Virus record (IMG/VR): IMGVR_UViG_3300024358_000017
Coordinates: 1-59,697 of that record
Direction: 5' to 3' (one strand)
Length of the DNA stretch: 59,697 bases
From: a virus
A program made the position numbers and the translations under genes. The notes beneath the pieces are model-generated. The model was not told where the DNA came from and searched no databases. It was given only the letters and a program-made list of their open reading frames with translations. This document shows positions 35,899 to 51,853 of the stretch, in pieces. How positions within the stretch are numbered: the first letter of the stretch is position 1; each line of letters begins with the position of its first letter.

Positions 35899-37380
35899 AT
35901 GCCAGTAATTAAAGTAAAACGTGGAACAACAACACCATCTTCATTGGTACAAGGCGAGGTAGCATATAATACCAGCGCCAACCAAATGTGGATTGGTAAT
36001 GCATCAAACACTCCAGTAAAAATTATTGGATCTGCAGGTGCTATGGAAAGTAACAGCGTGGCAATCACCGGGGGTACGATGTCCGGTGTAACTACAACTG
36101 CTACTAGTGTAAACTTAACATCATTAACTCTTAATGCTGGCGAACGTTTGTACTACGATGAAGGCGGTAACGCTAGTGCCTATACAGGAAACTGGAACTA
36201 CACAGAAACATATAACATGACAGACTGTGCTGGACTAGGAAACGTAACAGTACACGGCTGGGGCGGTAGTGCAAGAACTTATCAGTTGACACTAACAGGT
36301 GTACCGACTCATACAGAAATTAAATTTGAATGTTTGATTCATCAAGTAGACTCATGGGACGCTGAACAAAACGTAATTTATTTACAAAACTCTTCAGGCG
36401 CAGATGTTACAATGGCATCTTGGAATAAACAATATTCAACTGCGCCATATAATGTGGCCACATATAATAGCACTGAACATACATGGTTCGGTGGTCGTTG
36501 GTATTCTTACTTACCCTGGGGTGGTAATCAATCAGAAAACTCTGCAAGATTTAACGGTTATTCAAAAGTTACCACAGGATGGTTTGGACATACTACATCT
36601 ACAATCATTGCTAAGATGTATACAGGATTGGATCAAGCACAAAGTGACGAAGCATTTTACATTAGTCACGTTAAAGTATGGATCAGAGGCGGAAACTCTC
36701 AGGTAACTGGAGTAACTACAAGTACTTCTCTCAGCGGAAACAGTAACTCTACGCTACCAACAGAAGCGGCTGTCAAAGGATATGCTGACCAGTACAACGG
36801 TACATTAAAGAACTTATACAGTTATACTGGAAACAGTACCTATACTAAGAGCGGATCCGATGTACAACGCTTACGTGTTATCTGTGTAGGCGGTGGCGGC
36901 GGCGGCCGTGGCTATCACGAAAGTGGTGGTGGTGGCGGATATGCCGAGCGTTGGATTGACGCTACAAATATTTCCAGTGTTTCTATCACAGTAGGCGGCG
37001 GATCTGGTGGCGGTTATTACTTTGGATTCAGTGGACAGGGTGGCACAACTAGTTTTGGTAGTTATGTAAGTGCATCTGGAGGCTACGGTGCTAATCAAAA
37101 TAAGAGCCACTGCGGTGGCCACGGCGGCATCGGTTCAGGCGGTCAAATTAATACATACGGAGGCGGCGGCGGCGGACACGCACCGGGCTATAATAACCAA
37201 CAAGGCGGTATGAGCGGCGAAGGTGGCGCAACGTTCTTTGGAGGTGGCGGAGCAGGGCGTCACGGAGGCAACAGTTTTAACCCTGTGGCAGCACCTGGAG
37301 GTGGCGGACCTGGTGGCGCAGGTAACCACAACGGCTCAGACGGATATGCCGGAATTTGTTTAGTTTACGAGTACAGATAA
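35899..37380 (+). CDS. Glycine-rich fibre tip protein, copy 2, with inserted domain (493 aa)
   Basis: It has the same N-terminal domain (IKVKRGTTTPSSLVQGEVAY) and the same glycine-rich end (GGGGGGRGYHESGGGGG through GICLVYEYR) as its neighbours. It carries an extra domain at about residues 75-265. That domain is rich in Trp, Tyr, Asn and His and includes THTEIKFECLIHQVDSWDAE, resembling a beta-sandwich binding domain of secreted proteins. An LYSYTGNSTYTKSGSDVQRL segment joins it to the tip, nearly identical to copy 1. It starts six bases after copy 1. A receptor-binding role is inferred. Confidence 0.65.
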   Translation: MPVIKVKRGTTTPSSLVQGEVAYNTSANQMWIGNASNTPVKIIGSAGAMESNSVAITGGTMSGVTTTATSVNLTSLTLNAGERLYYDEGGNASAYTGNWNYTETYNMTDCAGLGNVTVHGWGGSARTYQLTLTGVPTHTEIKFECLIHQVDSWDAEQNVIYLQNSSGADVTMASWNKQYSTAPYNVATYNSTEHTWFGGRWYSYLPWGGNQSENSARFNGYSKVTTGWFGHTTSTIIAKMYTGLDQAQSDEAFYISHVKVWIRGGNSQVTGVTTSTSLSGNSNSTLPTEAAVKGYADQYNGTLKNLYSYTGNSTYTKSGSDVQRLRVICVGGGGGGRGYHESGGGGGYAERWIDATNISSVSITVGGGSGGGYYFGFSGQGGTTSFGSYVSASGGYGANQNKSHCGGHGGIGSGGQINTYGGGGGGHAPGYNNQQGGMSGEGGATFFGGGGAGRHGGNSFNPVAAPGGGGPGGAGNHNGSDGYAGICLVYEYR

Positions 37381-37381
37381 T

Positions 37382-38338
37382 ATGCCAACAATTAAATTTA
37401 AAAATAGTGTAACTTCTAGTAGTGTACCAGGATCAGGAACATTACAACCTGGAGAACCAGCATTTAATATTGCTGATCAACGTGCTTGGGCAGGTAATGC
37501 CTCTAATAACCCAGTTAAAATTATTGGTAATGTTGCACAACAAGAAAGTAATGCAGTAAGTATTTCAGGCGGTACAGTTACCGTCAGCACTTATTCTTCA
37601 TCAGCAGTTACTGGTAGCCAGTTAACACTAGGTGGTACAGCAGTAACACAAAGTACAGGCGCATGGGACGGCACGTCTAACTCAGTGTTAGTTAGCGAAG
37701 CCGGCGCCAAGTATATGACCGATAACAGATTAAAAGATAGATTGGTTGGTGTTTATGTTTATTCAGGATCAGGTACATACACTTATACTAAGAGTGGGCC
37801 AGAAGTACAAACATTACACGTTCTGTTATGTGGTGGGGGCGGTGGAGCCCGTGCATATTCAGAGTGTGGAGGTGGAGGTGGCTTTAGCGAAGGTATTATT
37901 ACCGCTACGAGTATAACAACAGTAACAGTTACTATCGGCGGTGGCGGGTCCGGCGGAGCATATTTTGGATTTAGTCCTGATGGTGGTACAACTAGTTTTG
38001 GTGCTTATCTATCAGCAGGCGGCGGTTACGGCGCAAATAGAAATACACAGCACAGCGGTGGACATGGTGGAATAGGTTATGGCGGTAGTATAAATACCTA
38101 TGGAGGTATGGGAGGCAGTCATAATAATATGGACCAATATTCCACATCAAACGCTTCGGGCGGAATTGGTGGCGGAACATATTTTGGTGGTTGTTTGCAA
38201 GGCGATAGACCTGACTGGAGTACTTCAAGTAGTACGGCAGCACCAGGTACAGGCGGAGTAGCCATTGCACCGAACCATAACGGACAAGGTGGCAGAAGCG
38301 GCCAGTCTGGAATTTGTATAGTTTATGAATATAGATAA
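37382..38338 (+). CDS. Glycine-rich fibre tip protein, copy 3 (318 aa)
   Basis: The third tandem paralogue begins one base after copy 2. The N-terminal domain (IKFKNSVTSSSVPGSGTLQPGE, AWAGNASNNPVKIIG) and linker match the others. The glycine-rich half (about residues 150-318) shares the YFGFS..GGTTSFG core and the final GICIVYEYR but differs in the loops between, such as GGMGGSHNNMDQYSTSNASG. This is what is expected of tips under diversifying selection. Confidence 0.65.
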   Translation: MPTIKFKNSVTSSSVPGSGTLQPGEPAFNIADQRAWAGNASNNPVKIIGNVAQQESNAVSISGGTVTVSTYSSSAVTGSQLTLGGTAVTQSTGAWDGTSNSVLVSEAGAKYMTDNRLKDRLVGVYVYSGSGTYTYTKSGPEVQTLHVLLCGGGGGARAYSECGGGGGFSEGIITATSITTVTVTIGGGGSGGAYFGFSPDGGTTSFGAYLSAGGGYGANRNTQHSGGHGGIGYGGSINTYGGMGGSHNNMDQYSTSNASGGIGGGTYFGGCLQGDRPDWSTSSSTAAPGTGGVAIAPNHNGQGGRSGQSGICIVYEYR

Positions 38339-38346
38339 GGATTATT

Positions 38347-38988
38347 ATGAAACGAGCACTAATTGATAGCAACAACTCTAGAGTAATTCAGATTGTTAAC
38401 ATCGGAGAAGAATTTGAAGTACACTCAGCATTGTATTGGGTAGATTGTCCCGATGATGCTGACACATACTACCTGTATGATCCAGAAGAGTTAACATTTG
38501 AAGACCCACATGCGGCATCTAAAGACGAATTTGGAAATCCTGTAGAGCCATTTACTATGCAACGTCAACGTGCATACCCTCCAGCAGGCGATCAAATGGA
38601 TATGTTATGGAAAGAAATTAGAGATACTGGTGGTATTTCAGCAGACGGTGCTTGGTTCCAATCTATACTAGCCGTAAAAGAATCAATTCCTAAGCCTGTA
38701 GCCTACGATCCAGCAAACCCTATTGCTTCTACAACTACACAATGGTATACATCTGATGGACAGTTTGTTCAGTTATTTTCAGAAGTTAGCGGAACAGGTG
38801 GCAAAGGATCTGGTGCTAAGTTTAAAGTAAGAAAAGCAGGCGATGTGTATCAGGTTATTGCTACAACTGGCGGCACAGGATACAAAGCCAACGATGTAAT
38901 TACATTGTCAGGTAATGATTATAATTGTGCTGTTACAGTATCTGAAGTAGATAATACAGGTAGCATTGTTACAGTATCTGTGAATTAA
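38347..38988 (+). CDS. Tail-fibre-region protein, possible assembly or structural factor (213 aa)
   Basis: The N-terminal part is a short beta domain (MKRALIDSNNSRVIQIVNIGE). Residues about 76-115 contain RQRAYPPAGDQMDMLWKEIR, a segment often found in phage fibre-associated proteins where 'YP..GDQ.DML' is followed by 'I...K..IPKP'. Residues about 155-213 are a copy of the A-K-F-x-V......Y.V....G.GY...D.I module seen in the two giant fibres. It is the last plus-strand gene before the convergent operon, with its TAA overlapping the facing stop codon. A fibre assembly or structural role is inferred. Confidence 0.6.
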   Translation: MKRALIDSNNSRVIQIVNIGEEFEVHSALYWVDCPDDADTYYLYDPEELTFEDPHAASKDEFGNPVEPFTMQRQRAYPPAGDQMDMLWKEIRDTGGISADGAWFQSILAVKESIPKPVAYDPANPIASTTTQWYTSDGQFVQLFSEVSGTGGKGSGAKFKVRKAGDVYQVIATTGGTGYKANDVITLSGNDYNCAVTVSEVDNTGSIVTVSVN

Positions 38989-39560
38989 ACACAGACACTA
39001 TTAAACGCAATTAATATTCTTCTATCTTTTCCCAAGTATGGTTTTGCATAATGCAACATTATACTTGGGAATATTATTAAGCGTCCAGGAATAAATTCTG
39101 CAGAGAAATTTTCATCAAAAAATTCTAGCCCGGGACGTTCGGGCAACTTAAACATATTAAACCATATATTATTTCCGCTCTGCGGCTCATCGGCATCTAT
39201 ATAAAATATACCACTCCAGGTAGAGTCTGGGTGTCTATGTGGTTCATGCTGACCCAATGGACGAGTAACGTGTGCCCAACTTTCTGTAATTGCTATATGA
39301 TAATCCGATTTGTTTACAGCATTAACAAAGTCTCTAGTAGTACTGTTTAACCAAGTATCAAGAGCTTTTAACTCTGAATGTTGCTGTAAGAAACTAAAAT
39401 TAGATTCCCATAAGTTTGTTTTAACCTTAGGTGCAATATTAGATTCTATGACATTAGGTTTTTCTTCTCTAAGGCATAGATCAACAATCGCATCTTTGTG
39501 ATCGGTAAATTCTTTCCATTCAAATATTCCTACAGGAATAGCACCAACTGATATTATCAT
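38985..39560 (-). CDS. 2OG-Fe(II) oxygenase, HxH type (191 aa)
   Basis: I choose the ATG at 39560, which overlaps the upstream stop as ATGA; a GTG at 39569 is less likely. The double-stranded beta-helix pattern of the 2OG-Fe(II) oxygenase family 5 is visible: H108-R-H110 followed by STWSGIFYID, a distal H170 in FPSIMLHYAKPY, and the 2OG-binding Arg180 or Arg181 in KDRRILIAFN. The residue two after the first His is His, not the usual Asp/Glu. It would hydroxylate or otherwise oxidise an unknown substrate using 2-oxoglutarate and oxygen. It is the last gene of the 22-gene minus operon. Confidence 0.8.
   Translation of the reverse strand: MIISVGAIPVGIFEWKEFTDHKDAIVDLCLREEKPNVIESNIAPKVKTNLWESNFSFLQQHSELKALDTWLNSTTRDFVNAVNKSDYHIAITESWAHVTRPLGQHEPHRHPDSTWSGIFYIDADEPQSGNNIWFNMFKLPERPGLEFFDENFSAEFIPGRLIIFPSIMLHYAKPYLGKDRRILIAFNSVCV
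39031..39069. terminator. Long hairpin at the convergence of the two transcription units
   Basis: A perfect 9-bp inverted repeat (CCCAAGTAT at 39031-39039, ATACTTGGG at 39061-39069) encloses a second inverted repeat TTGCAT/ATGCAA (39044-39056). It is 42 bases past the plus-strand stop and inside the minus-strand oxygenase gene. It may end plus-strand transcripts or protect their 3' ends. The T tract on the plus strand is weak. Confidence 0.4.
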
Positions 39561-40231
39561 CTTACACACGTATTAACAACTAAACGGTGACCGCTATTGC
39601 ATCTAGCCGCACTATGATACCTTGCACCGTTGAATATTGCTACCCTTCCCTTTTTTGGAGTTACTCTTTTAATAACACTAAAATTAGTCTTATCAACTTG
39701 ACTATCGATCAATTCCAGAATAGTTTGATCATAAAATGTTAGATCTTTGCCCTCTAATTGGGCCTTTATTTCCTGCGTTTCTAAAATATCCTTTACTGTT
39801 TTATCAAAAAATACAGTATCGCCGCCATCGCTGTCGCTGGCATAATATAAACACACCATATGATCTTCAGGAGTGTCTACATGAATATGATCAAAGTCGT
39901 TAGGACCGCATCCAGGCACAGGAAATGTTAAAAAACTTCTTGAAAACAATACATTATCAAATGGCAGATTTGCCTTATGAAAAGATTCAAACACCATAGG
40001 TAAAATCATAGGATACAAATCACTAGTAGATCCAGTTCTTACACTATAAAACGATTTTGCAAAACCAGGTTTAGTTTTTAAATCTAGTTTGTCAATCACG
40101 TTGTCTGCTAATGCAACATCTCGAGAAAACTGCCAAGTACTAGACGGAGATAATAACCAATTTTCTATCATATCCTGATACTGCGGACAGATAACATCAT
40201 CTAATACTAAAATTTCATTTATATCTATCAT
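39557..40231 (-). CDS. 2OG-Fe(II) oxygenase, prolyl-hydroxylase-like, HxD type (224 aa)
   Basis: The ATG at 40231 (MIDINEILVLDDV) begins one base after the upstream TAA and aligns with the 40233 paralogue; ATG at 40243 and TTG at 40246 are alternatives. The iron motif is H117-V-D119, the distal His is H206 (GARYHSA), and the 2OG Arg is R216 (GHRLVVN). CLYYASDSDGGDTVFFD and RVTPKKGRVAIFNG are shared with the neighbour, so the pair arose by tandem duplication. Small aromatic-rich substrates or peptidyl residues are possible; the substrate is unknown. Confidence 0.8.
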   Translation of the reverse strand: MIDINEILVLDDVICPQYQDMIENWLLSPSSTWQFSRDVALADNVIDKLDLKTKPGFAKSFYSVRTGSTSDLYPMILPMVFESFHKANLPFDNVLFSRSFLTFPVPGCGPNDFDHIHVDTPEDHMVCLYYASDSDGGDTVFFDKTVKDILETQEIKAQLEGKDLTFYDQTILELIDSQVDKTNFSVIKRVTPKKGRVAIFNGARYHSAARCNSGHRLVVNTCVR

Positions 40232-40232
40232 T

Positions 40233-40871
40233 TTATTCCACATCAAAATTTATAATACAACGTCTTCCTTGTGTAGGAGTACTACTGCTATGATAATGTT
40301 TTCCGTTAAACAATACTACTCGTCCTTTTTTGGGAGTTACTCGTTGTTTGATAGTAAACACTTCTTCATTAATGCCAGGAACATTGGGCACAATATCTGT
40401 GGTTTGATCATATATTATTGTATCGCCATCGCTGTCATTGACATAATAAAGACAAACTATGTGCGGTATGTTGTCATCAACGTGCGGATTATTAATGCTG
40501 GTTTGTTCTGTGGGAAATTGTAAAAAAGATCTGGCTTGAATTATATTCGACAATTTAAAATCAATTTTTGTCAATGCTTCATATAACAGCGGTAATAATA
40601 AATTATACACAGGACTCATGCCATTAAATGTTGGCACTATAGGATGCACTAGTCCAAGATTTTGTTTTTTAACTTTTCTAGTATTAGAGTATGTAATGTC
40701 GTCCAATAAAAACCAAGGAATACTCATTTCGCTTAATAGTGTTTTTTCAAGATCATCTTGATACATGTGATTAATCACGTCGTCAATAACTATAATATCA
40801 TCGAATGATATCTGAGGTTTTAAAGAATCTTGAAATTTAAAAAATTCTTTGGACTTAGCACTACCAATCAT
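40233..40871 (-). CDS. 2OG-Fe(II) oxygenase, tandem paralogue, HxD type (212 aa)
   Basis: A close relative of the 39557 gene product, sharing CLYYVNDSDGDTIIYDQT and RVTPKKGRVVLFNG. The iron-binding set is H130-V-D132 and H194 (KHYHSS), with R203 or R204 for 2-oxoglutarate. The ATG overlaps the upstream stop by four bases (ATGA), showing translational coupling. N-terminal residues 1-25 are an extension absent from the paralogue. Likely hydroxylase; substrate unknown. Confidence 0.8.
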   Translation of the reverse strand: MIGSAKSKEFFKFQDSLKPQISFDDIIVIDDVINHMYQDDLEKTLLSEMSIPWFLLDDITYSNTRKVKKQNLGLVHPIVPTFNGMSPVYNLLLPLLYEALTKIDFKLSNIIQARSFLQFPTEQTSINNPHVDDNIPHIVCLYYVNDSDGDTIIYDQTTDIVPNVPGINEEVFTIKQRVTPKKGRVVLFNGKHYHSSSTPTQGRRCIINFDVE

Positions 40872-41602
40872 AAGTCTAAATCTTTCCTATCTAATAGATA
40901 ATTAACTTTATTTTTTATAAATTGTCTCCAGCCATATCTGCTTAACTGTCCTAGTCCCAACAAGGAGTCTTTTCTTTTAGCATCAGATTCGTTATATTCT
41001 CTGCTAACGGCGGTAATAGTTTCCTTCTTAAATGGAATAACTTGAACTAACGGATCGCCCATTTTAATTAATGTGTCCTTGGGTTCGAACAACATGATAT
41101 TAATTGGATTATGATTTGGCACTCTGTCAGAATCTACAATAGCAGGTACTGCTTGATAATTTGCATTATGAAACCACATAGGCATCCACATTAAACTATA
41201 CCCAGGTGCTGTATAGATACTCCACGGATTGTCAATTTTAATATCTGTTCTAAATTTAAATCTATTAAACATCTCACCAAACTGTTCTTCAGGATGTGTT
41301 CTATGTTGATAGTTTAAATTACTGTAGTTTACATGATATTGGTCGTTTTGAAATTTTATTTCAATATCGCACCATGCCGGAATAACATACCCTGCCTGCA
41401 AATAATTGTTTACCGCAGGACATAATCTTACACTTAACAACGATGCAGAATTAAAATGATCAAACGGACAAATGTTTCCAGGATGCAATTCTTCATATTC
41501 TTTAGGCAAAAAGTTTCCAGCAGGCAACACAGGAGCGTGAGTCCTTATAGCCCACTCTCTACAAGTAAATGTAATAATCGGTTCTTGTTTCTTTTTAAAC
41601 AT
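40868..41602 (-). CDS. Unknown protein, DUF6065-like (244 aa)
   Basis: The protein shows an aromatic-rich beta pattern. It has a CPAVNNYLQAGYVIPAWCDIEI segment near residues 61-82, a NPWSIYTAPGYSLMWMP segment, and a KMGDPLVQVIPFKKE segment near the C-terminus. The 47604 protein has a comparable order (PAFVKYNEQTWVIRSLIDVEL, then LRWRLMPGSFNI, then FKRGQPLAYVRFRA), so the two are probably distant paralogues. The layout resembles DUF6065, of unknown function. Its ATG lies eight bases inside the end of the halogenase gene upstream, and the two copies flank the halogenase block. A partner, carrier or substrate role for the flavoenzymes is possible. Confidence 0.6.
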   Translation of the reverse strand: MFKKKQEPIITFTCREWAIRTHAPVLPAGNFLPKEYEELHPGNICPFDHFNSASLLSVRLCPAVNNYLQAGYVIPAWCDIEIKFQNDQYHVNYSNLNYQHRTHPEEQFGEMFNRFKFRTDIKIDNPWSIYTAPGYSLMWMPMWFHNANYQAVPAIVDSDRVPNHNPINIMLFEPKDTLIKMGDPLVQVIPFKKETITAVSREYNESDAKRKDSLLGLGQLSRYGWRQFIKNKVNYLLDRKDLDL

Positions 41603-43166
41603 TATACTTGTCTTTTAAGAACTGATATAAAGTAGGAGCGGCATCTGCAATCTTTTTCCAATAAGTTTTATTTGACTCCCAAATATCAAATGAATCATTA
41701 ACATAATCTAACCGTCTATTAAATTTAAATTCTGATCGTTTGATAACTGATTCTGTAATAGGGAAATAATTTAATCCAGCGGCAATGAAAAGTGCGCCAC
41801 CTGTACTTGAGTCGTACATTGATTGAACATCTCTTTTAAAGATGGCATTATCAAATCCATACCCTAAAAAGTCACCTGGAATTCTTTTTCCATTATTAAA
41901 TTTACGCTCTCTAGCATCTCTCCAATATTGAGTGTCACTGCGTTGGCTTAATAAGTAGTGCATACTTACAAACTCTGCAAACGCTCTGAAGTCTCCTCGA
42001 TTTGCTTCGTTAAATCCAACTTTATCAATTAAACTTATATCATCGCGAGATAAAGTTTTAACTAATCTATGCAAAAATTCGTGTACGGTGAACAAGCCAT
42101 TAGACTCTAATGGTTCTATGAATCCTGCACTTAGTCCAATAGCACAAACATTTTTATGGAAGAGTTCTTCGTGAATACCTACACGCATTTTAATTAATTT
42201 AAATTCTAATGTGTCGATTAAATCTGCAGGATTATTTTCCTTCAAGTAACGTTTAAATTCTTCTAACGCATCTTCGTTGGATACATAAGCATCACTGAAT
42301 ACATAACCAGTACCAATTCTAGACCATAAGGGAATATTCCACACCCAGCCGTGTTCAATAGCAGTACAGTTAGTGTAAGGTTCCAACTGACTTTCTTTGT
42401 CTGTATAAGGCATTCTAGTTGCCCATGCGCTGTTATTGGGTAGTATGTCTGAATAACTCTCGAATGGCACACCTAGTGCTTTTCCTAGTAGTAGACTTTT
42501 CCAACCTGTGCAGTCGATGTATAAATCTGCTGTGATTTTTTCACCTGTAGTTAGCTCAACACACTTAACACCTGCGCTATCAGTTTCGATATCTTCTTTG
42601 ATAGTGCCTACAATATGCTGAACTCCTCGGGGCTTACAATATTCTTCACGTAGCCACATACCAAACTTAGTAGCATCAAAGTGATAAGCCACATCGCTGT
42701 CGTAGCGCCAACCAGGTAGCTCATCATTTTCATTTTTAATAATTTTATTTTGATTAACTAACTGCATAGCGGGAAAGAAACACTCTGCAAAATCTGTATT
42801 TGGAGTTCCAGGATACTTGGCCTTTTTAATAAACCAGTCGTTTACACCGAATACTGTTCCCACATTCCAGGAGTCTCCGAAAGGATAATGAAATCCACCA
42901 GATCCTTTGCCTGCCCAGTCTGTGAATTTGATGCTCATCTTAAGACCAGCATCTGTGTATTTCATAAAATCGTCTTCTTTAATATCAAGTATGTGTAGCC
43001 ATTCATTAATTTGACCTAATGTGCTTTCGCCCACCCCTACAGTAGGAACATCTGCACTTTCAATTAAAGAGATAGTTTTTTCTGGAAAGAATTTTATAAG
43101 AGTTGCGGCAGTCATCCAACCGGCGCTACCACCTCCGACTACAACTATGCTATTGATTTTTGACAT
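41595..43166 (-). CDS. Flavin-dependent halogenase homologue 1 (523 aa)
   Basis: This is a full-length member of the tryptophan-halogenase-like flavoenzyme family. Visible are the N-terminal FAD loop VVVGGGSAGWMTAA (about residues 8-21) and GVGESTLG. The candidate catalytic Lys76 lies in LKMSIKFTDW, equivalent to Lys79 of PrnA and RebH. The family motif is GWVWNIPLWSR (about 273-283), and EPLESNG near 351-357 holds the Glu equivalent to PrnA Glu346. A flavin reductase would normally supply FADH2; none is in the window. Relatives include the cyanophage iodinating halogenase VirX1. Whether this enzyme uses chloride, bromide or iodide, and on what substrate, cannot be read from the sequence. Confidence 0.9.
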   Translation of the reverse strand: MSKINSIVVVGGGSAGWMTAATLIKFFPEKTISLIESADVPTVGVGESTLGQINEWLHILDIKEDDFMKYTDAGLKMSIKFTDWAGKGSGGFHYPFGDSWNVGTVFGVNDWFIKKAKYPGTPNTDFAECFFPAMQLVNQNKIIKNENDELPGWRYDSDVAYHFDATKFGMWLREEYCKPRGVQHIVGTIKEDIETDSAGVKCVELTTGEKITADLYIDCTGWKSLLLGKALGVPFESYSDILPNNSAWATRMPYTDKESQLEPYTNCTAIEHGWVWNIPLWSRIGTGYVFSDAYVSNEDALEEFKRYLKENNPADLIDTLEFKLIKMRVGIHEELFHKNVCAIGLSAGFIEPLESNGLFTVHEFLHRLVKTLSRDDISLIDKVGFNEANRGDFRAFAEFVSMHYLLSQRSDTQYWRDARERKFNNGKRIPGDFLGYGFDNAIFKRDVQSMYDSSTGGALFIAAGLNYFPITESVIKRSEFKFNRRLDYVNDSFDIWESNKTYWKKIADAAPTLYQFLKDKYNV

Positions 43167-43167
43167 T

Positions 43168-44664
43168 TTATTTTCCTAAGGCTTTATTATAATTACCTAT
43201 AAATTTTTCAAGACCTACTTTATGTGGAATATGAGGTAATGTATTTTCTAAATGTTTTTGTTCGTCGACAATCCTATCACAATGCTGTCTAATTTCCGGA
43301 GTCAGCATCATATATTCATGTTTGACACGTTCTGGATTTAAGAGATTTAATCCGTGTAATGTAACTATCCAATTATCAGCAGTAAACAGTACATACTTTT
43401 GATCAAATTCTAATACCAATGGCAGTCGTTTGCTCCACTTTTCTAAATTATCTTTTAATCTTTTAGGTACCCAGGTGTCTCTGTTATTTTTAAGATCCTT
43501 CCAGAATGCTGTATCTTCTCTGGGTACGTAGTAATGTACTGCAATAAAATCTAAAATATTTTCGCAGATGTCGTCTACTCGTTTATTGTATATTCCGGCC
43601 ACTTCGTCTGGACTGTTGGTCCAACTAGGCAATAAATTCATAATTAAAAAAGTCTGCAAAATAGTTTGACTAATGGCACTACTTTCTAGTGGCTCTACAA
43701 AACTAGAACATAAGCCGATACTAGCGCAGTTTTTAATCCAAGTGCGGTCAAGTTTACCTGCATCAAACTTGATTTTCTTTGCTATGTTTATTTTTCTACC
43801 TAACTTTGCTTCGACTTCTGCCTGCGCCTGGTCGAAATCTATGTACTTGTCACTGAACACATAGCCGTTGCCCCATCGACCATGTACGGGAGTATTCCAC
43901 ATCCAACCATAATCCATACCGGTTGCGCTGGTGTAAATTGGATATTCGTCTGTATCTTCTGTAGGAAATGCAATAGCACTATTAACCCAAAGATTATCTT
44001 TATAACTTTCCCACTTTGCTCCAAGTTTTTTCATTATCACTTTGGCAAAACCAGAACAGTCAACAAAGAAATCTGCCGAGTGTACGGCATTTTCTCCAAT
44101 TAGTTCTTTAACATATCCGTTGTCGTCTAAGATTACATCTACAATTTTATCATCTATTGTAGGAATGTTTCTTTCTTTACACAACTTATGTAAGTAGTCG
44201 TTGGTGGAAAATGTATTGAAATGAAATTGATTAACAGGGCAAGGAACATTAAGATTTACCCAATCTTCGGGTACTGTGCTATCGATTGTACGTTTTTGAA
44301 TAATGTCTAAAGGACCAGCACCTTCTGCAATTAATTTAGCGTAAACTGCTAGATAATCTCCAGCGGGTCTTGCATAAGGTTCACAGGTAGCATGCCAGTA
44401 ATCAGGCACACCCCAATTACTAAATTTTATTCCTGTTTTAAGAGTAGCATCGCAGGCAACCAGCGTATCTTCTAACCTAACACCTATAGTTTCGCAGAAG
44501 TATCTCCAATGTTCTGTAGCGCCTTCCCCTACACCTATAACTCCAACGGAAGAACTTTCGATAACTTTAATATCTAAATGTTCATGTTGCCTTTTTAACA
44601 TCAAGGCAGTAATTAATCCGCTGGTGCCGCCACCTAATACTATTATACTTTTAATTGTTTTCAT
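43168..44664 (-). CDS. Flavin-dependent halogenase homologue 2 (498 aa)
   Basis: It has the FAD loop VLGGGTSGLITALML, then GVGEGATEHW, then the candidate catalytic Lys76 (ATLKTGIKFSNW). The central motif reads GWMWNTPVHGRWGNGYVFSD, a Trp-x-Trp-x-x-Pro form. EPLESSA carries the conserved Glu. It shares the G-x-TEHW signature with the 46147 gene, so these two form a sub-pair. It overlaps the next gene upstream by 14 bases and leaves one base before homologue 1. Full length with no frameshift, so likely active; substrate unknown. Confidence 0.9.
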   Translation of the reverse strand: MKTIKSIIVLGGGTSGLITALMLKRQHEHLDIKVIESSSVGVIGVGEGATEHWRYFCETIGVRLEDTLVACDATLKTGIKFSNWGVPDYWHATCEPYARPAGDYLAVYAKLIAEGAGPLDIIQKRTIDSTVPEDWVNLNVPCPVNQFHFNTFSTNDYLHKLCKERNIPTIDDKIVDVILDDNGYVKELIGENAVHSADFFVDCSGFAKVIMKKLGAKWESYKDNLWVNSAIAFPTEDTDEYPIYTSATGMDYGWMWNTPVHGRWGNGYVFSDKYIDFDQAQAEVEAKLGRKINIAKKIKFDAGKLDRTWIKNCASIGLCSSFVEPLESSAISQTILQTFLIMNLLPSWTNSPDEVAGIYNKRVDDICENILDFIAVHYYVPREDTAFWKDLKNNRDTWVPKRLKDNLEKWSKRLPLVLEFDQKYVLFTADNWIVTLHGLNLLNPERVKHEYMMLTPEIRQHCDRIVDEQKHLENTLPHIPHKVGLEKFIGNYNKALGK

Positions 44665-46150
44665 AAACCAATTTTACCCATTCTTCTAAAGTATAGCAGA
44701 TTGATGTTATGTTGTCAACATCGTTAGATAATTTTTGGTATGATTGGTGAAAGTCTTCAAATATAGTTGACCGTTTGGATAATAGACGTTGTCTAAGTTT
44801 GTCTTTATTGATTAAATCCAGTCCTTGGATAACAACTGCATAATTTTCTAAAGCATATACTTCTGTATTGTCGATACCTAATGATCCAGATTTCCATAGA
44901 TCTAATTTATGCTGTAATGACGCCGATATACGCTGTGGATTAGAGTTATGATCCTGCCAAAAATCGGAATCATTTCTGTGTCCTCGATAATGTAGTGAAA
45001 GGAAATCGCTGATATCAAACATTATTTTTTGATATTTGTCATTAAATGATTTTTGTTCATACACGGTATTACTGTCGGGAGACCAAAATTCTGACAATAT
45101 TTTTAATTGTTCAGCAACAGATGCTAGTCCGTTCGACTCCAACGGCTCTAAAAATCCCGAACTAATTCCAACGGCAATTACATTATTTTTCCAAGAATTT
45201 AAAAACAACCCAGGTGTAAATTTTAAATTAGCCACCGGATCTATCTTTATATTAAAATATTTTTCTGCTTCGTCTATTGCCTGATCCGCAGTAATTCTGT
45301 CGGGGTCGTAAATGTATCCATTACCTGCCCTATGTTTTAAATTAATATTCCAAGACCATCCATTTTTCAATGCTGTCATTTCGGTATAATTTTTAAGTAC
45401 AGGCTCGTTCCACCATGCTACAACTGCCCTAGCAGGAAAATATTCGCTTAAATCCTTAAAAGGTTCATTTAATTCTTTTTGTAGAAGTAGTCTGGCGAAT
45501 CCGGAGCAATCAAAAAACCAATCTGCATTTATTTGATCCCTAGTATCTAATGTAATAGAATCAATGTCACCGTTGAGTGCTTTATTAGATTTAATATACT
45601 TGCCTTCGATTAGTTTAATCCCCTTGCTTATGCCGCGACGTTTCATATAGTCGGCATTGGCGCGGCTGTCGAAGTGCCACATAGGTAGTGTAATAACATT
45701 AAATTTACCTACACTACTAGGACTGATAGGCAATTTATTCACACGCTGTAACGATCCGTTGTAGAATATTTTTTCAGTAGGTATGCCTTCCGCCAATGAA
45801 CAGGCTAAAAAATCATTACCCAATCCAAACTCTGGAAACTTAGCATTAAAGTCTAATCTATACCAGTCTGGTATAAGCCCATGAACAAACTCTGTTCCTA
45901 TTCCGTTCCAATTTACAAATTTGCCGCCGAGTTTAGGCATGGCATTTACAGACACTATCCAGTCATCAAACGGAATTTCTAAAAAGTTGAATAGTTTATT
46001 AAGGGATGCGGAACCACTTTCTCCAGCAATAATAGGTGGAGTATTAGGGTCTTCTATTACTGTCACATCGCAGGCAGGCCACACTTGTTTAACAAACAAA
46101 GCAGTTAACCAGCCAGCACTTCCTCCGCCTAATATTGCGATGGTTTTCAT
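44651..46150 (-). CDS. Flavin-dependent halogenase homologue 3, divergent (499 aa)
   Basis: The FAD loop is AILGGGSAGWLTALFV and the following loop is IIAGESGSASL, where the others have GVGE. The Lys73 equivalent is kept (AMPKLGGKFVNW), as is the Glu in FLEPLESNG. The Trp motif reads GWSWNINLKHR: both Trp are kept but the usual Pro is Asn. It is the most divergent of the four and may have a different substrate or halide preference. Its ATG overlaps the upstream stop by four bases. Confidence 0.88.
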   Translation of the reverse strand: MKTIAILGGGSAGWLTALFVKQVWPACDVTVIEDPNTPPIIAGESGSASLNKLFNFLEIPFDDWIVSVNAMPKLGGKFVNWNGIGTEFVHGLIPDWYRLDFNAKFPEFGLGNDFLACSLAEGIPTEKIFYNGSLQRVNKLPISPSSVGKFNVITLPMWHFDSRANADYMKRRGISKGIKLIEGKYIKSNKALNGDIDSITLDTRDQINADWFFDCSGFARLLLQKELNEPFKDLSEYFPARAVVAWWNEPVLKNYTEMTALKNGWSWNINLKHRAGNGYIYDPDRITADQAIDEAEKYFNIKIDPVANLKFTPGLFLNSWKNNVIAVGISSGFLEPLESNGLASVAEQLKILSEFWSPDSNTVYEQKSFNDKYQKIMFDISDFLSLHYRGHRNDSDFWQDHNSNPQRISASLQHKLDLWKSGSLGIDNTEVYALENYAVVIQGLDLINKDKLRQRLLSKRSTIFEDFHQSYQKLSNDVDNITSICYTLEEWVKLVYENN

Positions 46151-47607
46151 CGTTTCACTTCTTTTGCTAAGAATTCAATTGCGCCTCTGTGATTAAATTT
46201 AAGAGCATCGCGTTGGTATAATAATATATTGTCGTATATTTTATCTGTTTCAGTAATAACAGAGGGATCCTGAGACATCCATATTTGTTTTATTTTTTCT
46301 ATATCAAATAATTTTAAACCGTGTAATACTTGTAACCAGTTCTGTTCTGTAAATAACACCCAGTGACTGGGAAAATATGCTCTACTTGGCACAACTGTTT
46401 TAAAGTGTTCCAGTGTATCTTTATTAAACTCGGTCAACTTTAAATCTTTGCAACTACGCCAGAATGGTGTATCGTTACGTTGAGTGATGTAATGTAACTG
46501 TACAAAGTCAATAATGTTTTTAGCAACTGCTTCAAATTGTTGATTATATTTGTCCGCTATTTTTTCGTTGCCTTTAGTCCAAGATGCCAGTGCTGATCCT
46601 AGTGCAAACGCCTGTTGAATACTAGTTCCTATGCTAGTAGCCTCGAGAGGTTCAACAAAACTTCCAGCAAGACCTACTGCAACACAATTTTTAATCCAGA
46701 ATTTATCAACATAACCTGCACTAAACTTAAAACTTTTACCTACTTGTATAGGATCTTTATAGTACTGTTGCATTTCAGACAATGCTTGATCGTCGGATAA
46801 AAATTCACTGGAATAAACGTAACCGTTGCCATAGCGTTCTTGCGTTGGTATTCTCCATGACCATCCGCTGGATAATGCACGACTCAGGGTCCAACTTGGA
46901 AACTCGTCGTCACTGGGTGTAGGAAAAGCAAACGCTCTGTCCATGGGTAAATATTCTTTACAATCATTCCACTTTGCGCCAAGTTTAGAACTAATGACTC
47001 TTCTGAACCCAGAAGAATCTACAAAGAAATCTGCTGTATATTTGACACCGTCTTTGTTAATTAAAGAACTAATGTATCCTTGACTGTCAATTTCAACGTC
47101 GTCTATATCATCTTCAACAACAACTACTCCGCGTTCGATACATTTCTTGTGTAAAAATTTATTAAGTTTAAACGTATCAAAATGATATTGATTTACACTG
47201 GCATCGATAGGAAAGTAATGTATGGAATTAATGACATTATCTGGATATAAGTGCGGCTGATCTTCAGAAATTAATTTGACCATTACTCCTGGCAACCCGT
47301 TACCCATTAGTTGCGTATAATCGGCATGTAGAGCGTGCATATAAAATGTGCCGTCACCATTCCAATTTTCAAATCTAATACCTGCTTTGAAAGTAGCACC
47401 AGTTTCTAACATTAATTCTTGTAGAGTAATCCCTACAGTATTAATAAACTGTTTCCAATGTTCTGTACTACCTTCTCCGACGCCGACAATACCTATAGTG
47501 GGAGACTCGATAATTTTAATATCCATGGTAGGATACCACTTATTGAGTACTAGTGCCGTTATTAGTCCGCTAGTACCTCCACCTAATATGCAAACGGACT
47601 TGATCAT
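46147..47607 (-). CDS. Flavin-dependent halogenase homologue 4 (486 aa)
   Basis: The FAD loop is CILGGGTSGLITALVL, followed by GVGEGSTEHW, the candidate catalytic Lys74 (ATFKAGIRFENW), GWSWRIPTQERYGNGYVYSSEF and FVEPLEATS with the conserved Glu. It is the first of the four halogenase genes to be translated in the operon and a sister of homologue 2. It is coupled to the DUF6065-like gene upstream by an ATGA overlap. The catalytic residues are intact, so halogenation is plausible; a monooxygenase or dehydrogenase role cannot be excluded. Confidence 0.9.
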   Translation of the reverse strand: MIKSVCILGGGTSGLITALVLNKWYPTMDIKIIESPTIGIVGVGEGSTEHWKQFINTVGITLQELMLETGATFKAGIRFENWNGDGTFYMHALHADYTQLMGNGLPGVMVKLISEDQPHLYPDNVINSIHYFPIDASVNQYHFDTFKLNKFLHKKCIERGVVVVEDDIDDVEIDSQGYISSLINKDGVKYTADFFVDSSGFRRVISSKLGAKWNDCKEYLPMDRAFAFPTPSDDEFPSWTLSRALSSGWSWRIPTQERYGNGYVYSSEFLSDDQALSEMQQYYKDPIQVGKSFKFSAGYVDKFWIKNCVAVGLAGSFVEPLEATSIGTSIQQAFALGSALASWTKGNEKIADKYNQQFEAVAKNIIDFVQLHYITQRNDTPFWRSCKDLKLTEFNKDTLEHFKTVVPSRAYFPSHWVLFTEQNWLQVLHGLKLFDIEKIKQIWMSQDPSVITETDKIYDNILLYQRDALKFNHRGAIEFLAKEVKR

Positions 47608-48365
47608 TTTTTTAAGATCCTTCTAAAGAATCTACAAATCCAAGGTTCTGATTTTACTAATTTCTTTGGACGTAATCTATTTGGAATGACCCCCGACACA
47701 ATTTTCCAACTTAAATTGTTTTGATATGATTTAAGAGACACAGAAGAATTTACAATATGATCGAGTTCTTCTGTTCTTGGTTGTTTGTTTAATTGAAACA
47801 TTGCCTGTGGGTCTCTTGCTCTAAATCTTACATAGGCTAACGGCTGTCCTCTCTTAAATTCAATTCTGTCATTGAGCATTTCAAAAGTAGGAACCAGCGG
47901 ACGTTGCCAATTACAAATATTAAAACTGCCAGGCATCAATCTCCATCTTAAATCGATATGATTATAAGGAGGTAAAAAGTCTACCCATACTTCTTCGTCT
48001 GCATAGAACAGCATGGCGCTGTTTAATGCAACTATAGGTTTATCAACTTCAGGATTAAAATCTCCCCAGTGAACTTTGACCATAGCATCGTGTGCAAGAC
48101 TTGGAAGATTACTGCTTAAAACTTTATTATATTTGTCCCAGTGCAATTCTACATCAATTAAAGAACGTATTACCCATGTTTGTTCGTTATACTTTACAAA
48201 TGCAGGGCATTTCATAAATCCTACTTTTGAATCTTTCCATGTGTCTAACTTTTCTAAATCAAAATGAATAATTTCGTTCCAGCCGTAATAATTTAGCGGA
48301 CCCAGTCCGCTAGTATTTGGAGATTTTTCAAACCATGGAGTATATCCTACTTTTACAACTGACAT
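47604..48365 (-). CDS. Unknown protein, DUF6065-like (253 aa)
   Basis: The protein opens with VGYTPWFEKSPNTSGLGPLNYYGW and has PAFVKYNEQTWVIRSLIDVEL, ALNSAMLFYADEEVWVDFLPP, and FKRGQPLAYVRFRARDPQAM. The order of aromatic-rich strands matches the 40868 gene, its likely distant paralogue. A strongly basic end (about residues 228-253, RLRPKKLVKSEPWICRFFRR) is unusual and could contact nucleic acid or membrane. Its ATG shares one base with the upstream stop. Function unknown. Confidence 0.6.
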   Translation of the reverse strand: MSVVKVGYTPWFEKSPNTSGLGPLNYYGWNEIIHFDLEKLDTWKDSKVGFMKCPAFVKYNEQTWVIRSLIDVELHWDKYNKVLSSNLPSLAHDAMVKVHWGDFNPEVDKPIVALNSAMLFYADEEVWVDFLPPYNHIDLRWRLMPGSFNICNWQRPLVPTFEMLNDRIEFKRGQPLAYVRFRARDPQAMFQLNKQPRTEELDHIVNSSVSLKSYQNNLSWKIVSGVIPNRLRPKKLVKSEPWICRFFRRILKK

Positions 48366-48631
48366 TATTCGTCCTTAAAATTATCATTAAAACTATACCA
48401 ACTAGTCCATTTACCATAAGGACAACTTTGTGATTTATTTCTTACGGTCTTGGGCATAAAATATCCAGTAATAGTACAGCCGTAATTTTCATACGACTTA
48501 CAGTTATTGCATATTTCTAAACGTTTTTGTTCTACTTCTCTTGGGACTAGTAAAATTTTTTCGTTGAAGTGAACTCTACGTTGCGATGTATCAAGGTTTC
48601 TTATAACACGAGGTACTTTTTTATCTTCCAT
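48365..48631 (-). CDS. Small Cys-cluster protein, possible metal binder (88 aa)
   Basis: Four Cys lie in C-x2-C-x8-C......CPYGKW order between about residues 41 and 75 (ICNNCKSYENYGCTITGYF, then SCPYGKW). Small phage proteins with C-x2-C...C-G-C-F-x6-C-P-x-GKW occur often next to baseplate or neck genes and are thought to bind zinc or iron. The Cys pattern here fits a one-site metal protein. It is tightly coupled to the neighbours (11-base overlap upstream, one shared base downstream). It could be an electron-transfer or assembly partner for the oxygenases, which is inference only. Confidence 0.65.
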   Translation of the reverse strand: MEDKKVPRVIRNLDTSQRRVHFNEKILLVPREVEQKRLEICNNCKSYENYGCTITGYFMPKTVRNKSQSCPYGKWTSWYSFNDNFKDE

Positions 48632-49394
48632 CAGCGCCTCCAGTGAGCATTGCTTTTAATTGATTTATAATAATTTCCTGAGTATGTAACTTATTAAACA
48701 AATAATCCATGGTACTGTTATTCGATTCCACTATTACGGGAGTTGAAAAATTATCAGGCATTGTAGTTTCTTTAACGACCGGATATGGTTGTTGAGAATC
48801 TAAGTATACTCCGCTGTATCTTAAATTAAATGTGATTACTATACGTTCATCATCAGTGTGACTTACTTCAGTTTTATGTCTCAACCATCCAGGAAACATT
48901 AACACATCGCCTGATTTAATATGAATTGTGGTATTAATTTTTTCTTCTACAGGACGATTGTAAGGAATGTGTGTAATACTGTATTCCATAGGATTAGTAA
49001 ACACTATTCCTCCACTACGTTCAGGAGCACTTAGATAAAAACTTACAACAATAGGGTGCATACTATGAGAATGCCAGTCAGTAAAACTACCGTTAACGTG
49101 TTTATTAGACCAGCACTCGTCTATTGCAGGGCGCAGACCGTCGTTGATATCCAGGACTTTCCAATATAAATTTGCATGATACAAAATTAAATCGCACAAT
49201 GCTTTAAATTCTGGTACTTCATGCAAATTTCTATTAGTGCCGTAGGTACTTATACCGCCATTTTTTTCCAACCCAACATGAAATTTTATTTCCTTGTATT
49301 GTTGTTCAAGCGTAGACCTTATGACTCCAAAGTCTATATCAGAGTCAAAAATATTAGTTTTGTAGATAGGTAACGCAAATAAATTTTGAATCAT
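48621..49394 (-). CDS. 2OG-Fe(II) oxygenase, HxH type (257 aa)
   Basis: A family-5 2OG oxygenase core covers residues about 95-195: WHSHSMHPIVVSFYLSAP with H108-x-H110, GIVFTNP, SGDVLMFPGWLRHKTEV with distal H173, and DERIVITFNL with R184. The residue expected to be Asp/Glu is His110. An extra C-terminal 60 residues after the core are low complexity with no recognised motif. ATG overlaps the upstream stop by four bases. Substrate unknown. Confidence 0.82.
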   Translation of the reverse strand: MIQNLFALPIYKTNIFDSDIDFGVIRSTLEQQYKEIKFHVGLEKNGGISTYGTNRNLHEVPEFKALCDLILYHANLYWKVLDINDGLRPAIDECWSNKHVNGSFTDWHSHSMHPIVVSFYLSAPERSGGIVFTNPMEYSITHIPYNRPVEEKINTTIHIKSGDVLMFPGWLRHKTEVSHTDDERIVITFNLRYSGVYLDSQQPYPVVKETTMPDNFSTPVIVESNNSTMDYLFNKLHTQEIIINQLKAMLTGGADGR

Positions 49395-50002
49395 TTAACT
49401 TCGGCTTCAATATCGCCACTAAAATCAAACTTATTAACAAACGTCTTAAAAGAAATATATTTTCTTAATTCTGTACAATTTCTGTTAGGAGCAAGGCCTC
49501 TGTGAGGAATGTTACTGTCAAATACAATACAAGTATTAGGCATTGGATAATAACTGGCTATAATATTTCCTTGATTGTCAAAAAATTGCAGTTCACCGCC
49601 CCATTCCGGGCTCCATTCTTTATTAGGAAAATAACACATTGTCATATAACCGTCGCCGTTTGAATTAAATTCAAACTCTCTGTCAACGTGTATATTTCCG
49701 TCTAGGCCAAATGTTTTGCCGCCGGCAACAACGTCAAGACTTTTAAAGTTATAACCTTTGACTCTAGGATCTAGTGCTTCGAGTTTGTCAATAATATCCT
49801 GAAATAATACTTCTGTCCAACGATTTTTAACCATATCTACAGACCAAAAGTTTGCGTTATCTTCGATATCAAAGCCAGCGGCATTAATTTTTATAACACC
49901 GTATTTCCAAACTCCGTCGTTTAAATCTGCAATAATGTTAGCAAAAACATCTTGCTTTGCAACGTTTTCGAGATAAAAAATTTCTGGTAATTTGTTAGAC
50001 AT
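49391..50002 (-). CDS. 2OG-Fe(II) oxygenase, HxD type (203 aa)
   Basis: The motif set is H105-V-D107 (GNIHVDREF), WGGELQFFD, FDSNIPHRGLAP with distal H167, and LRKYISFKT with R180 as the 2OG ligand. This is the type frequently seen in T4-like cyanophages. Its ATG at 50002 follows a strong AAGGAGAATTAC ribosome site, and it is the first gene after an internal late-promoter-like element at 50025-50034. It heads the second half of the minus operon, including the halogenases. Confidence 0.85.
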   Translation of the reverse strand: MSNKLPEIFYLENVAKQDVFANIIADLNDGVWKYGVIKINAAGFDIEDNANFWSVDMVKNRWTEVLFQDIIDKLEALDPRVKGYNFKSLDVVAGGKTFGLDGNIHVDREFEFNSNGDGYMTMCYFPNKEWSPEWGGELQFFDNQGNIIASYYPMPNTCIVFDSNIPHRGLAPNRNCTELRKYISFKTFVNKFDFSGDIEAEVK

Positions 50003-50052: not shown

Positions 50053-50691
50053 TTACTTAGATCCGGCTTGGATAGCAATATTACCTGCTACGGAAATCCT
50101 GTAATCGTCGGACGTATAAAATGGGTGTACTTCGTGCATACATTCTGCTGGAAACAACAACATTTTCCCTTCCCATGTCTTATCCATGAATATAGGATTT
50201 TTAGTTATTTTACCAAACGAATTTACATAGAAAAATTCAAATGCTGATGCTAGATTTTTATTAGAGTTTACCCCAGGACTTGCAGCCAACTCTTCATTGA
50301 GGTCATATGGAATTTGTAAGTATATTACAAAACTATATAGACCTAGATGTGTATGCGCTGGATTGAATTCATATTTTTTCTGAAAATTAACCCATAGTGT
50401 GTCTACAGCGAAATCTAATCGCCCTGGTTTAAACACGCTGATATTAGAATTATATTTGAACAGCTCGTTATAAGTTTCGGCTACATTAAATGCAAATGGC
50501 TCTACTACCGAAATGGAGTCTTTTAATGAATATTCTCTCTGAATATTACCAGCCAACGTGTGGTTAGTAGCAGAAGCATGGTCAAAGTCTTTTTGTATTT
50601 CTTTAACTTCCTTCCACAAAGTGTCCATAATTTCTTTAGGAACGTCTTCAATAATATAGCCAAACGAATTAAATGTTTGATAATAACTCAT
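50053..50691 (-). CDS. 2OG-Fe(II) oxygenase, HxH type (212 aa)
   Basis: Residues 110-200 carry NPAHTHLGLYSFVIYLQIP (H113-x-H115), an insertion of about 40 residues, then KMLLFPAECMHEVHPFY with distal H186, and DDYRISVAGNI with R198. The second position of the H-x-x motif is His where Asp/Glu is usual. It has an ATGA overlap with the gene upstream. The insertion between the motifs probably forms a substrate lid. Substrate unknown. Confidence 0.8.
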   Translation of the reverse strand: MSYYQTFNSFGYIIEDVPKEIMDTLWKEVKEIQKDFDHASATNHTLAGNIQREYSLKDSISVVEPFAFNVAETYNELFKYNSNISVFKPGRLDFAVDTLWVNFQKKYEFNPAHTHLGLYSFVIYLQIPYDLNEELAASPGVNSNKNLASAFEFFYVNSFGKITKNPIFMDKTWEGKMLLFPAECMHEVHPFYTSDDYRISVAGNIAIQAGSK

Positions 50692-51287
50692 ATAATAATT
50701 GGAATAAATCCCATGTTATCAAAAATTCTATCTCGATGCTCTAAGTCAAATCCAAATGTAATTCGTTCACCCTCGTACGGTTCTAAAATTTCTACATGAT
50801 GAAATCTACTACCAGGGCCTATGTAAAACTGTCCTACTTTGTTTTCAACTCTGTACAACTCTTTGCCGTTAGGCTTATCTGTAAACACAGTATGACTTTT
50901 CTTAGGATCTATAGCCATAAATCCGTGTAAAGGCCAATCATGATTATGTGTTTTAAGAACCTGTCCATTTTTATGACTGTTAATCCAAGCCTGCAACCAT
51001 AGTTGTTTTGGCTTTTCGATACCCGCTAGTTCGTGATATTGTCTAATTCCGTCGATTAAACTTGTATAGATATCATAGAACCATTGATTACAAGAACAAA
51101 GACCAAACACATTATAGTTAGCAAACTGCCAGGTAATGTTGTCTGTGCCAACAGCATAATTACGTGCATTAAATTTTCTTTTAAATTTATCAATACCTAT
51201 GTCTGTCATGCGTTGAATGTCTGCAATATTTTCAACAACATGCGGAACATCAAATGTCATGTATTGATATTCACTGTTGTAATACAT
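50688..51287 (-). CDS. 2OG-Fe(II) oxygenase-like protein, HxH type (199 aa)
   Basis: The likely core is LKTHNHDWPLHGFMAID (H114-x-H116-D117), GQFYIGPGSRFHHVEIL (H163 or H164) and GERITFGFDL (R175). Asp117, one residue beyond, may supply the carboxylate, so the metal set is less clear than in its neighbours. The ATG at 51287 follows AGGAGAAG and lies 17 bases inside the upstream gene. The N-terminal 95 residues are less typical and rich in Tyr and Asn. Confidence 0.7.
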   Translation of the reverse strand: MYYNSEYQYMTFDVPHVVENIADIQRMTDIGIDKFKRKFNARNYAVGTDNITWQFANYNVFGLCSCNQWFYDIYTSLIDGIRQYHELAGIEKPKQLWLQAWINSHKNGQVLKTHNHDWPLHGFMAIDPKKSHTVFTDKPNGKELYRVENKVGQFYIGPGSRFHHVEILEPYEGERITFGFDLEHRDRIFDNMGFIPIII

Positions 51288-51852: not shown

Positions 51853-51853
51853 A

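Follow-up and report, generated by a model that had tools for sequence, protein, structure and literature searches.

A Tandem Array of Four Flavin-Dependent Halogenase Homologs Beside Tail-Tip Genes in a Giant Phage and Its Possible Role in Tail-Tip Modification

Introduction

Why would a phage carry four flavin-dependent halogenases in a row, and what would they halogenate? The question is raised by a stretch of 59,697 nucleotides of virus DNA (IMG/VR record IMGVR_UViG_3300024358_000017, positions 1 to 59,697; hereafter the window), in which four adjacent genes encode homologs of these enzymes. Enzymes of this family form hypohalous acid from reduced flavin adenine dinucleotide (FADH2), O2, and halide, and the acid passes to a Lys/Glu site, where an electron-rich ring is halogenated. 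We propose, with a probability of roughly 0.36, that four active halogenases, encoded in one operon with approximately 11 2-oxoglutarate (2OG)-Fe(II) oxygenases, decorate the phage's own tail-tip proteins at different sites. In the papers searched, phage halogenases are given no natural substrate and appear in reviews as auxiliary metabolic genes, and the 2OG oxygenases of phages have been assigned to nitrogen metabolism or DNA repair.

Four Diverged Halogenase Homologs in One Operon

The genes are named here in order of transcription, from H4, which is transcribed first, to H1; a sequence-only reading of this DNA had numbered them by rising coordinate, and its gene 4 is likewise H4. All lie on the minus strand: H4 (46147–47607; 486 amino acids; 350 bits against the family PF04820), H3 (44651–46150; 499 amino acids; 294 bits), H2 (43168–44664; 498 amino acids; 305 bits), and H1 (41595–43166; 523 amino acids; 353 bits). 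The matches to PF04820, whose curated cut-off is 21 bits, cover the full length of each protein (294–353 bits), and a search of the window with this family returned exactly these four genes, all of which also match phrog_2928 (E <= 6e-90). H4 and H3 overlap by 4 bases and H3 and H2 by 14, and a single base separates H2 from H1, so both the operon of four consecutive homologs and the tight spacing described in the sequence-only reading are borne out.

A flavin-binding GxGxxG motif is found near the N-terminus of every copy (as GGGSAG or GGGTSG), as are, in RebH numbering, the catalytic Lys (K79) and the active-site Glu (E357), in agreement with the first reading. The Trp-x-Trp motif that it described is present in all four as GWxW, whereas the final Ile-Pro of the full WxWxIP motif is found only in H1 (GWVWNIP) and H4 (GWSWRIP), with WxWxTP in H2 (GWMWNTP) and WxWxIN in H3 (GWSWNIN). 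The TEHW signature is restricted to H2 and H4, as had been noted before. The halide-site residues vary among the copies, with ESN in H1 and H3 (both EPLESNG), ESS in H2 (EPLESSA), and EAT in H4 (EPLEATS).

Sequence matches among PDB entries were VirX1 (6qgm) for H1 (E=9e-104), AbeH (8fov) for H2, RebH for H3, and 9luq, BrvH, and PrnA for H4. The AlphaFold2 model of H3, the most divergent copy, is confident (predicted local distance difference test [pLDDT] of 91.1; predicted template modeling [TM] score of 0.91), and Foldseek matched it to PrnA (4z44; E=4e-40, TM 0.87) and VirX1 (TM 0.81). H3, the sole copy modeled, is thus predicted to have a RebH/PrnA-like halogenase fold. In a survey of 94 sampled phage homologs, the K79 equivalent was present in all 94 and the E357 equivalent in 92. 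One of the two Glu losses is in the H3 counterpart of another viral array (L106:7992-9464), where EPLGSPG and GWSFDVS replace EPLESNG and GWSWNIN; this copy may be inactive or altered, in an array that is intact in other respects.

Overall, the family matches and motifs bear out the earlier reading of four diverged, non-decayed flavin-dependent halogenase homologs, and the conservation of array and active site fits four distinct activities better than redundancy. They are not filed here as tryptophan halogenases. At the positions of RebH H109-S-F111, H1 has Y-P-F, H2 H-A-T, H3 H-G-L, and H4 H-A-L; Phe111 is kept in H1 only, in which H109 is Tyr. Because the indole-sandwich pair of H109 and F111 does not occur together in any of the four copies, free tryptophan is not an obvious substrate of H1–H4.

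An Old and Maintained Array

The array is unchanged on seven further contigs with three or four of the genes, which rules out an assembly artifact. One of these is 270,181 bases long; the window corresponds to approximately 42,165–101,861 of this contig in reverse orientation, and H1–H4 are its only halogenases. The metagenome search suggested earlier for the same gene order was productive: the order 4-3-2-1 recurs at 60–74% identity in the viral contigs L105/L170, L155/L157, and L160, and L123 holds its start. Shorter or reordered arrays are also present, namely 4-3-1 (L156/L158), 3-4-1 (L106), 2-4-1 (L114-L118, L121), and 4-1-3 (L015, L017-L020). Positional orthologs of H4 share 60–69% identity with it (L105, L155, L123, L156), and those of H2 67–68% (L105, L155). 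A very divergent, shorter halogenase-like open reading frame (ORF) of 385 amino acids follows the three-gene array in two contigs (L015:12252-13409 and L017:15145-16302).

Within the window, the four proteins share only 25–41% pairwise identity (26–41% for the others against H4). In a tree of 125 homologs, each copy groups with its positional counterparts from other arrays and not with its array neighbors: H1 falls inside a supported VirX1 clade, H2 and H4 join the P-SSM2 halogenase in a large clade of phage proteins, and H3 is placed in a separate phage-only clade. Nonsynonymous divergence (dN) between the window and its relatives is 0.22–0.38 for every copy, and synonymous sites are saturated. 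Because of this grouping, the saturation, and the low dN, the array is old, and purifying selection maintains all four members. Recent duplication is excluded by the low identity together with the tree, and pseudogenes by the intact motifs and the constraint on each copy, which upholds the earlier view that no copy is decayed.

Association with Glycine-Rich Tail-Tip Genes

The surroundings of the array, that is, the oxygenases, the phrog_7084-type proteins, and the glycine-rich (Gly-rich) tail genes, hold most of the information on the likely substrate and were overlooked in the sequence-only reading. Downstream of the tail-fiber genes, the largest of which encodes 3,835 amino acids, three plus-strand genes encode Gly-rich tail-tip proteins that are candidate substrates: 34951–35892 (PF21722, just under the cut-off), 35899–37380 (PF21722), and 37382–38338 (PF21722; phrog_863, "tail fiber assembly"). 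They are followed on the same strand by a phrog_1787 gene (38347–38988) that is convergent with the halogenase-oxygenase island and whose homologs lie between tail-tip genes and halogenases in cyanophages. On the 270-kilobase (kb) contig, the only three genes of this kind are 3.3 kb from the array.

Of the non-redundant contigs from phages, 8 of 15 with arrays have a Gly-rich tail gene no more than 8 kb away, as against 1 of 49 with a single halogenase (Fisher p = 1e-5; array contigs are partly related, so the value overstates independence and is only indicative). The one single-halogenase contig with such a neighbor, L014, itself holds an array truncated where the contig stops. The combination of halogenase array, Gly-rich tail genes, and 2OG oxygenases is found in the window, in five other contigs (L155, L156, L106, L017, L020), and in the cyanophages Syn10, P-RSM6, S-RIM44, and P-TIM40; in L155, L156, and L106, the island and the tail genes are kept together. 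The tail genes are convergent with the halogenases in the window, whereas they are co-directional in the cyanophages and L017, and the simple descent of one block is therefore disfavored.

The Gly-rich proteins had no match in the PDB by sequence, and a gp38-like adhesin identity remains a lead. They show no clear excess of aromatic residues (Trp approximately 1–2%, Tyr 5–6%). Subtilisin-like ORFs were seen by eye among the tail genes beside two other halogenase arrays (L114:3921-5864 and L106:1-684).

The 2OG Oxygenase Island

The halogenases are part of a 20-gene minus-strand directon that runs from 54712 to 38985, in which most genes overlap or nearly touch and one gap measures 50 bases. 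Pfam scores above the cut-offs identify six of its ORFs as 2OG-Fe(II) oxygenases, and approximately five others are probably related to these. The array is bracketed by two phrog_7084-type proteins: one directly downstream of H1 (40868–41602; E=9e-37), and one directly upstream of H4 (47604–48365), which matches phrog_17480 (E=7e-18) and is a distant relative of phrog_7084 (9e-4). We rejected a named enzyme for phrog_7084, for which there is no Pfam match, an AlphaFold2 model of moderate confidence (pLDDT 75.5), and weak matches to the dUTPase fold (E ~3e-4, TM 0.6 by target length).

Downstream of this bracket are two probable 2OG-Fe(II) oxygenases with sub-threshold PF13640 scores (cut-off 27) and HxD...H motifs, at 40233–40871 (25.3 bits; phrog_61, 7.6e-12) and 39557–40246 (24.8 bits; with an HVD motif), and a 2OG-Fe(II) oxygenase at 38985–39569 (PF13759, 57.4 bits, cut-off 27). 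Upstream of the array, after a small Cys-containing protein with a sub-threshold likeness to DUF6171 (48365–48631), there are oxygenases at 48621–49394 (PF13759, 55 bits), 49391–50002 (PF13640, 36.6 bits), and 50053–50691 (PF13759, 42.5 bits), and probable relatives at 50688–51287 (phrog_2696/phrog_81) and 51271–51894 (PHROG label "ferrochelatase"; HID motif). Farther upstream are an SGNH-hydrolase-like ORF (51854–52603; GDSFSD motif by eye, no Pfam or PHROG match), a DUF6445 protein that is probably 2OG-like (52485–53138; 53.9 bits), oxygenases at 53141–53713 (PF13759, 70.4 bits) and 53694–54278 (PF13640, 62.7 bits), and, at the upstream end, a NUDIX protein (54278–54712; 56 bits). All of these are on the minus strand. 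Four ORFs that Pfam or motifs identify as 2OG-Fe(II) oxygenases (49391-50002, 40233-40871, 39557-40246, and 51271-51894) match PHROGs labeled "DNA endonuclease V" (phrog_274) or "ferrochelatase" (phrog_2954); these labels seem to be wrong and have been carried over into the annotation of cyanophages.

The pairing with oxygenases recurs in other phages: 2OG oxygenases are near 13 of 17 H1-type, 10 of 11 H2-type, and all 9 H3-type phage halogenases, compared with 2 of 134 bacterial ones.

What Might the Halogenases Modify?

The gene neighborhood leads us to infer a tail-tip protein as the natural substrate. The four halogenases would be made in turn from the operon, together with approximately eleven 2OG-Fe(II) oxygenases, and each, if active, would convert O2, halide, and FADH2 supplied by the host into hypohalous acid. 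A host reductase is assumed because the flavin reductase family PF01613, the one reductase family searched, did not turn up in any of ten phage records, the 270-kb contig among them. The acid would travel through a tunnel to the K79-equivalent Lys near the E357-equivalent Glu, and an aromatic side chain would be halogenated, most likely in the adjacent Gly-rich tail-tip proteins, which presumably contact the receptor. Separate copies would be specific for separate sites and the oxygenases would hydroxylate others, so that the host-binding tip would be chemically diversified. As a tentative generalization, marine T4-like phages might carry an island dedicated to protein modification, in which tandem VirX1-type halogenases and numerous 2OG oxygenases halogenate and hydroxylate the phage's own host-binding proteins at the tail tip; the natural substrate of VirX1 would then be a virion protein, and how many sites are decorated would be set by the copy number, from two to four.

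Several observations weigh against a tail-tip substrate. Arrays or pairs in L114, L118, L052, L184, L060, and L035 have no Gly-rich tail gene in reach, although L114 and L118 have other tail or structural genes. The P-SSM2 halogenase lies away from tail genes, and that of HTVC008M lies among terminase and tail-sheath genes with no Gly-rich gene in reach. Moreover, T4-like phages commonly carry extra genes in their tail regions, and closeness may reflect tolerance of insertion. A tblastn search for the tail genes in halogenase-free phages gave only two matches, with the low-complexity filter masking the queries.

If the closeness to tail genes is incidental, the enzymes could instead build or decorate a small molecule or surface glycan (a secondary metabolite, capsule, or lipopolysaccharide) during infection, which is the main alternative, possible yet doubtful in our estimate. 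Iyer et al. (2021) predict such a system in the jumbo cyanophage S-SSM6a, where a ten-gene cluster includes one halogenase and 2OG enzymes (PMC7824862). The characterized relatives PrnA, RebH, and Thal use free tryptophan, and the title of the VirX1 paper reports iodination of diverse substrates. Carbamoyltransferase-like and heptosyltransferase-like ORFs adjoin the halogenases in L161 (by eye), and the SGNH-like ORF of the window would also fit. However, the searches of the window island turned up neither a scaffold-making enzyme nor a carrier protein or glycosyltransferase, and the island follows tail-tip genes in several arrangements. Host proteins or metabolites could also be the target, for example indole/tryptophan signaling, the photosystem, or envelope proteins modified for cell takeover. 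The filing of halogenase genes as auxiliary metabolic genes (PMC10452541, PMC3037559) and their position among metabolic genes in single-halogenase phages such as P-SSM2 speak for this, but we regard it as unlikely, as it leaves unexplained both the arrays beside tail-tip genes and four separately constrained copies.

The remaining alternatives concern the enzymes themselves. It is rather improbable that one or more of the copies have kept the halogenase fold but act as flavin oxidases or hydroxylases instead of halogenating: H2 and H3 do deviate at the end of WxWxIP, the halide-site residues do vary, and the L106 counterpart of H3 does lack the Glu, yet all four copies and almost every relative retain the Lys and the Glu, and the predicted fold of H3 is RebH-like. 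That adjacent paralogs in one operon serve gene dosage only, as redundant copies of recent origin, is barely credible; low identity, separate deep clades, an order conserved at 60–74% identity, and constraint on each copy contradict it. The modification of tail-tip proteins, if true, would be a new route to chemical diversification of phage host-binding proteins and a source of protein-directed halogenases. The arrangement shared by cultured cyanophages, including the source of VirX1, and an uncultured jumbo phage makes the substrate question directly testable.

The Source Phage

The major capsid protein is closest to those of jumbo T4-like phages (Sinorhizobium phage Phosso, 70%; Vibrio phage 2.275.O, 70%; PA5oct, 66%), and the source phage is, judging by sequence, a giant, marine-type, PA5oct/Phosso-like jumbo phage. 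Its Sinorhizobium, Vibrio, Pseudomonas, and Erwinia relatives are not among the annotated halogenase-matching phages, going by organism counts; the latter consist largely of cyanophages, together with Pelagibacter phage HTVC008M and a small number of others. A PF04820-like protein is also encoded in four records of Campylobacter phages.

The 270-kb contig (L084-L097) carries more than 30 transfer RNA (tRNA) genes, a transfer-messenger RNA, and a tRNA with anticodon CTA (called tRNA-Pyl; L096:12503-12576), and TAG is the stop in only 4 of its 222 predicted ORFs. The CTA tRNA and rare TAG stops suggest that amber suppression or recoding is possible in this phage. At the contig end (L097; 263,543–270,144 of the 270-kb contig), bacterial-looking ORFs were seen by eye, among them a fatty-acid desaturase and a CHASE2-type cyclase, which are either host genes or a chimeric contig end.

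Comparison with Known Systems

The sequence-only reading treated the tandem set as unprecedented. This does not hold, as cultured cyanophages have pairs and bacteria have arrays of up to four. Cyanophage halogenases, including two per genome, have already been tabulated (PMC3037559, PMC2984593), and single phages are known to carry large numbers of 2OG genes, 24 in the case of S-SCSM1 (PMC9602691). None of the annotated phage records matched by our queries has more than three halogenase places. On the tail-tip association of halogenases, no statement was found in the literature searched, whose coverage is incomplete; searches on halogenases with SapC/TonB and on viral halogenases with tails likewise returned nothing on such a gene context.

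Compared with PrnA, RebH, Thal, and PyrH, the window proteins share the fold (as modeled for H3), the flavin motif, the Lys, and the Glu, but H3 is only approximately 25% identical and the H109/F111 pair is not kept in H1–H4. H2 and H4 belong to the phage clade of the P-SSM2 PrnA, to which H4 is 41% identical; P-SSM2, by contrast, has a single copy away from tail genes. Among bacteria, Caulobacter sp. UNC279MFTsu5.1 (L252) also has four halogenase-family genes in a row, but there the neighbors, judged by eye, are genes for a TonB-dependent receptor and for the use of xylan. Bacterial arrays are without the phrog_7084 protein and nearly without 2OG neighbors, and they often hold one copy lacking the Lys and/or Glu. 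Such degenerate members amid intact copies, of which phage arrays are mostly free, occur at L190:4787-6472, L205:3095-4606, L209:6410-7960, and L252:6544-7989 (the last by eye), and may perhaps be non-catalytic partners.

The closest likeness is to Syn10, whose protein CPUG_00131 is practically identical over 530 residues to VirX1, the only phage halogenase that has a solved structure (6qgm). H1, of the VirX1 clade, is 38% identical to it (E=9e-104). VirX1 is the second of a tandem pair in the order Gly-rich tail gene, Gly-rich tail gene, phrog_1787 homolog, halogenase (CPUG_00132), VirX1, phrog_7084 homolog, and oxygenases, and thus has tail genes and phrog_1787 on one side and phrog_7084 and 2OG oxygenases on the other. 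P-RSM6, S-RIM44, and P-TIM40 have a like module, with a halogenase pair beside Gly-rich "tail fiber assembly" genes, a phrog_1787 homolog, and 2OG genes. The tail genes and the phrog_1787 protein of the window have homologs in all four cyanophages, and a phrog_7084 homolog is present in three: it comes next after VirX1 in Syn10, and in S-RIM44 and P-TIM40 it follows the second halogenase. Unlike the window, with its four halogenases, Syn10 has two, both VirX1-type and on the same strand as the tail genes, with no H2, H3, or H4 types; the other three cyanophages also have VirX1-type pairs only, and the carriers are cyanophages rather than a PA5oct/Phosso-like jumbo phage. The array therefore appears as an enlarged version of known tandem halogenases, and the new point is its association with tail-tip genes.

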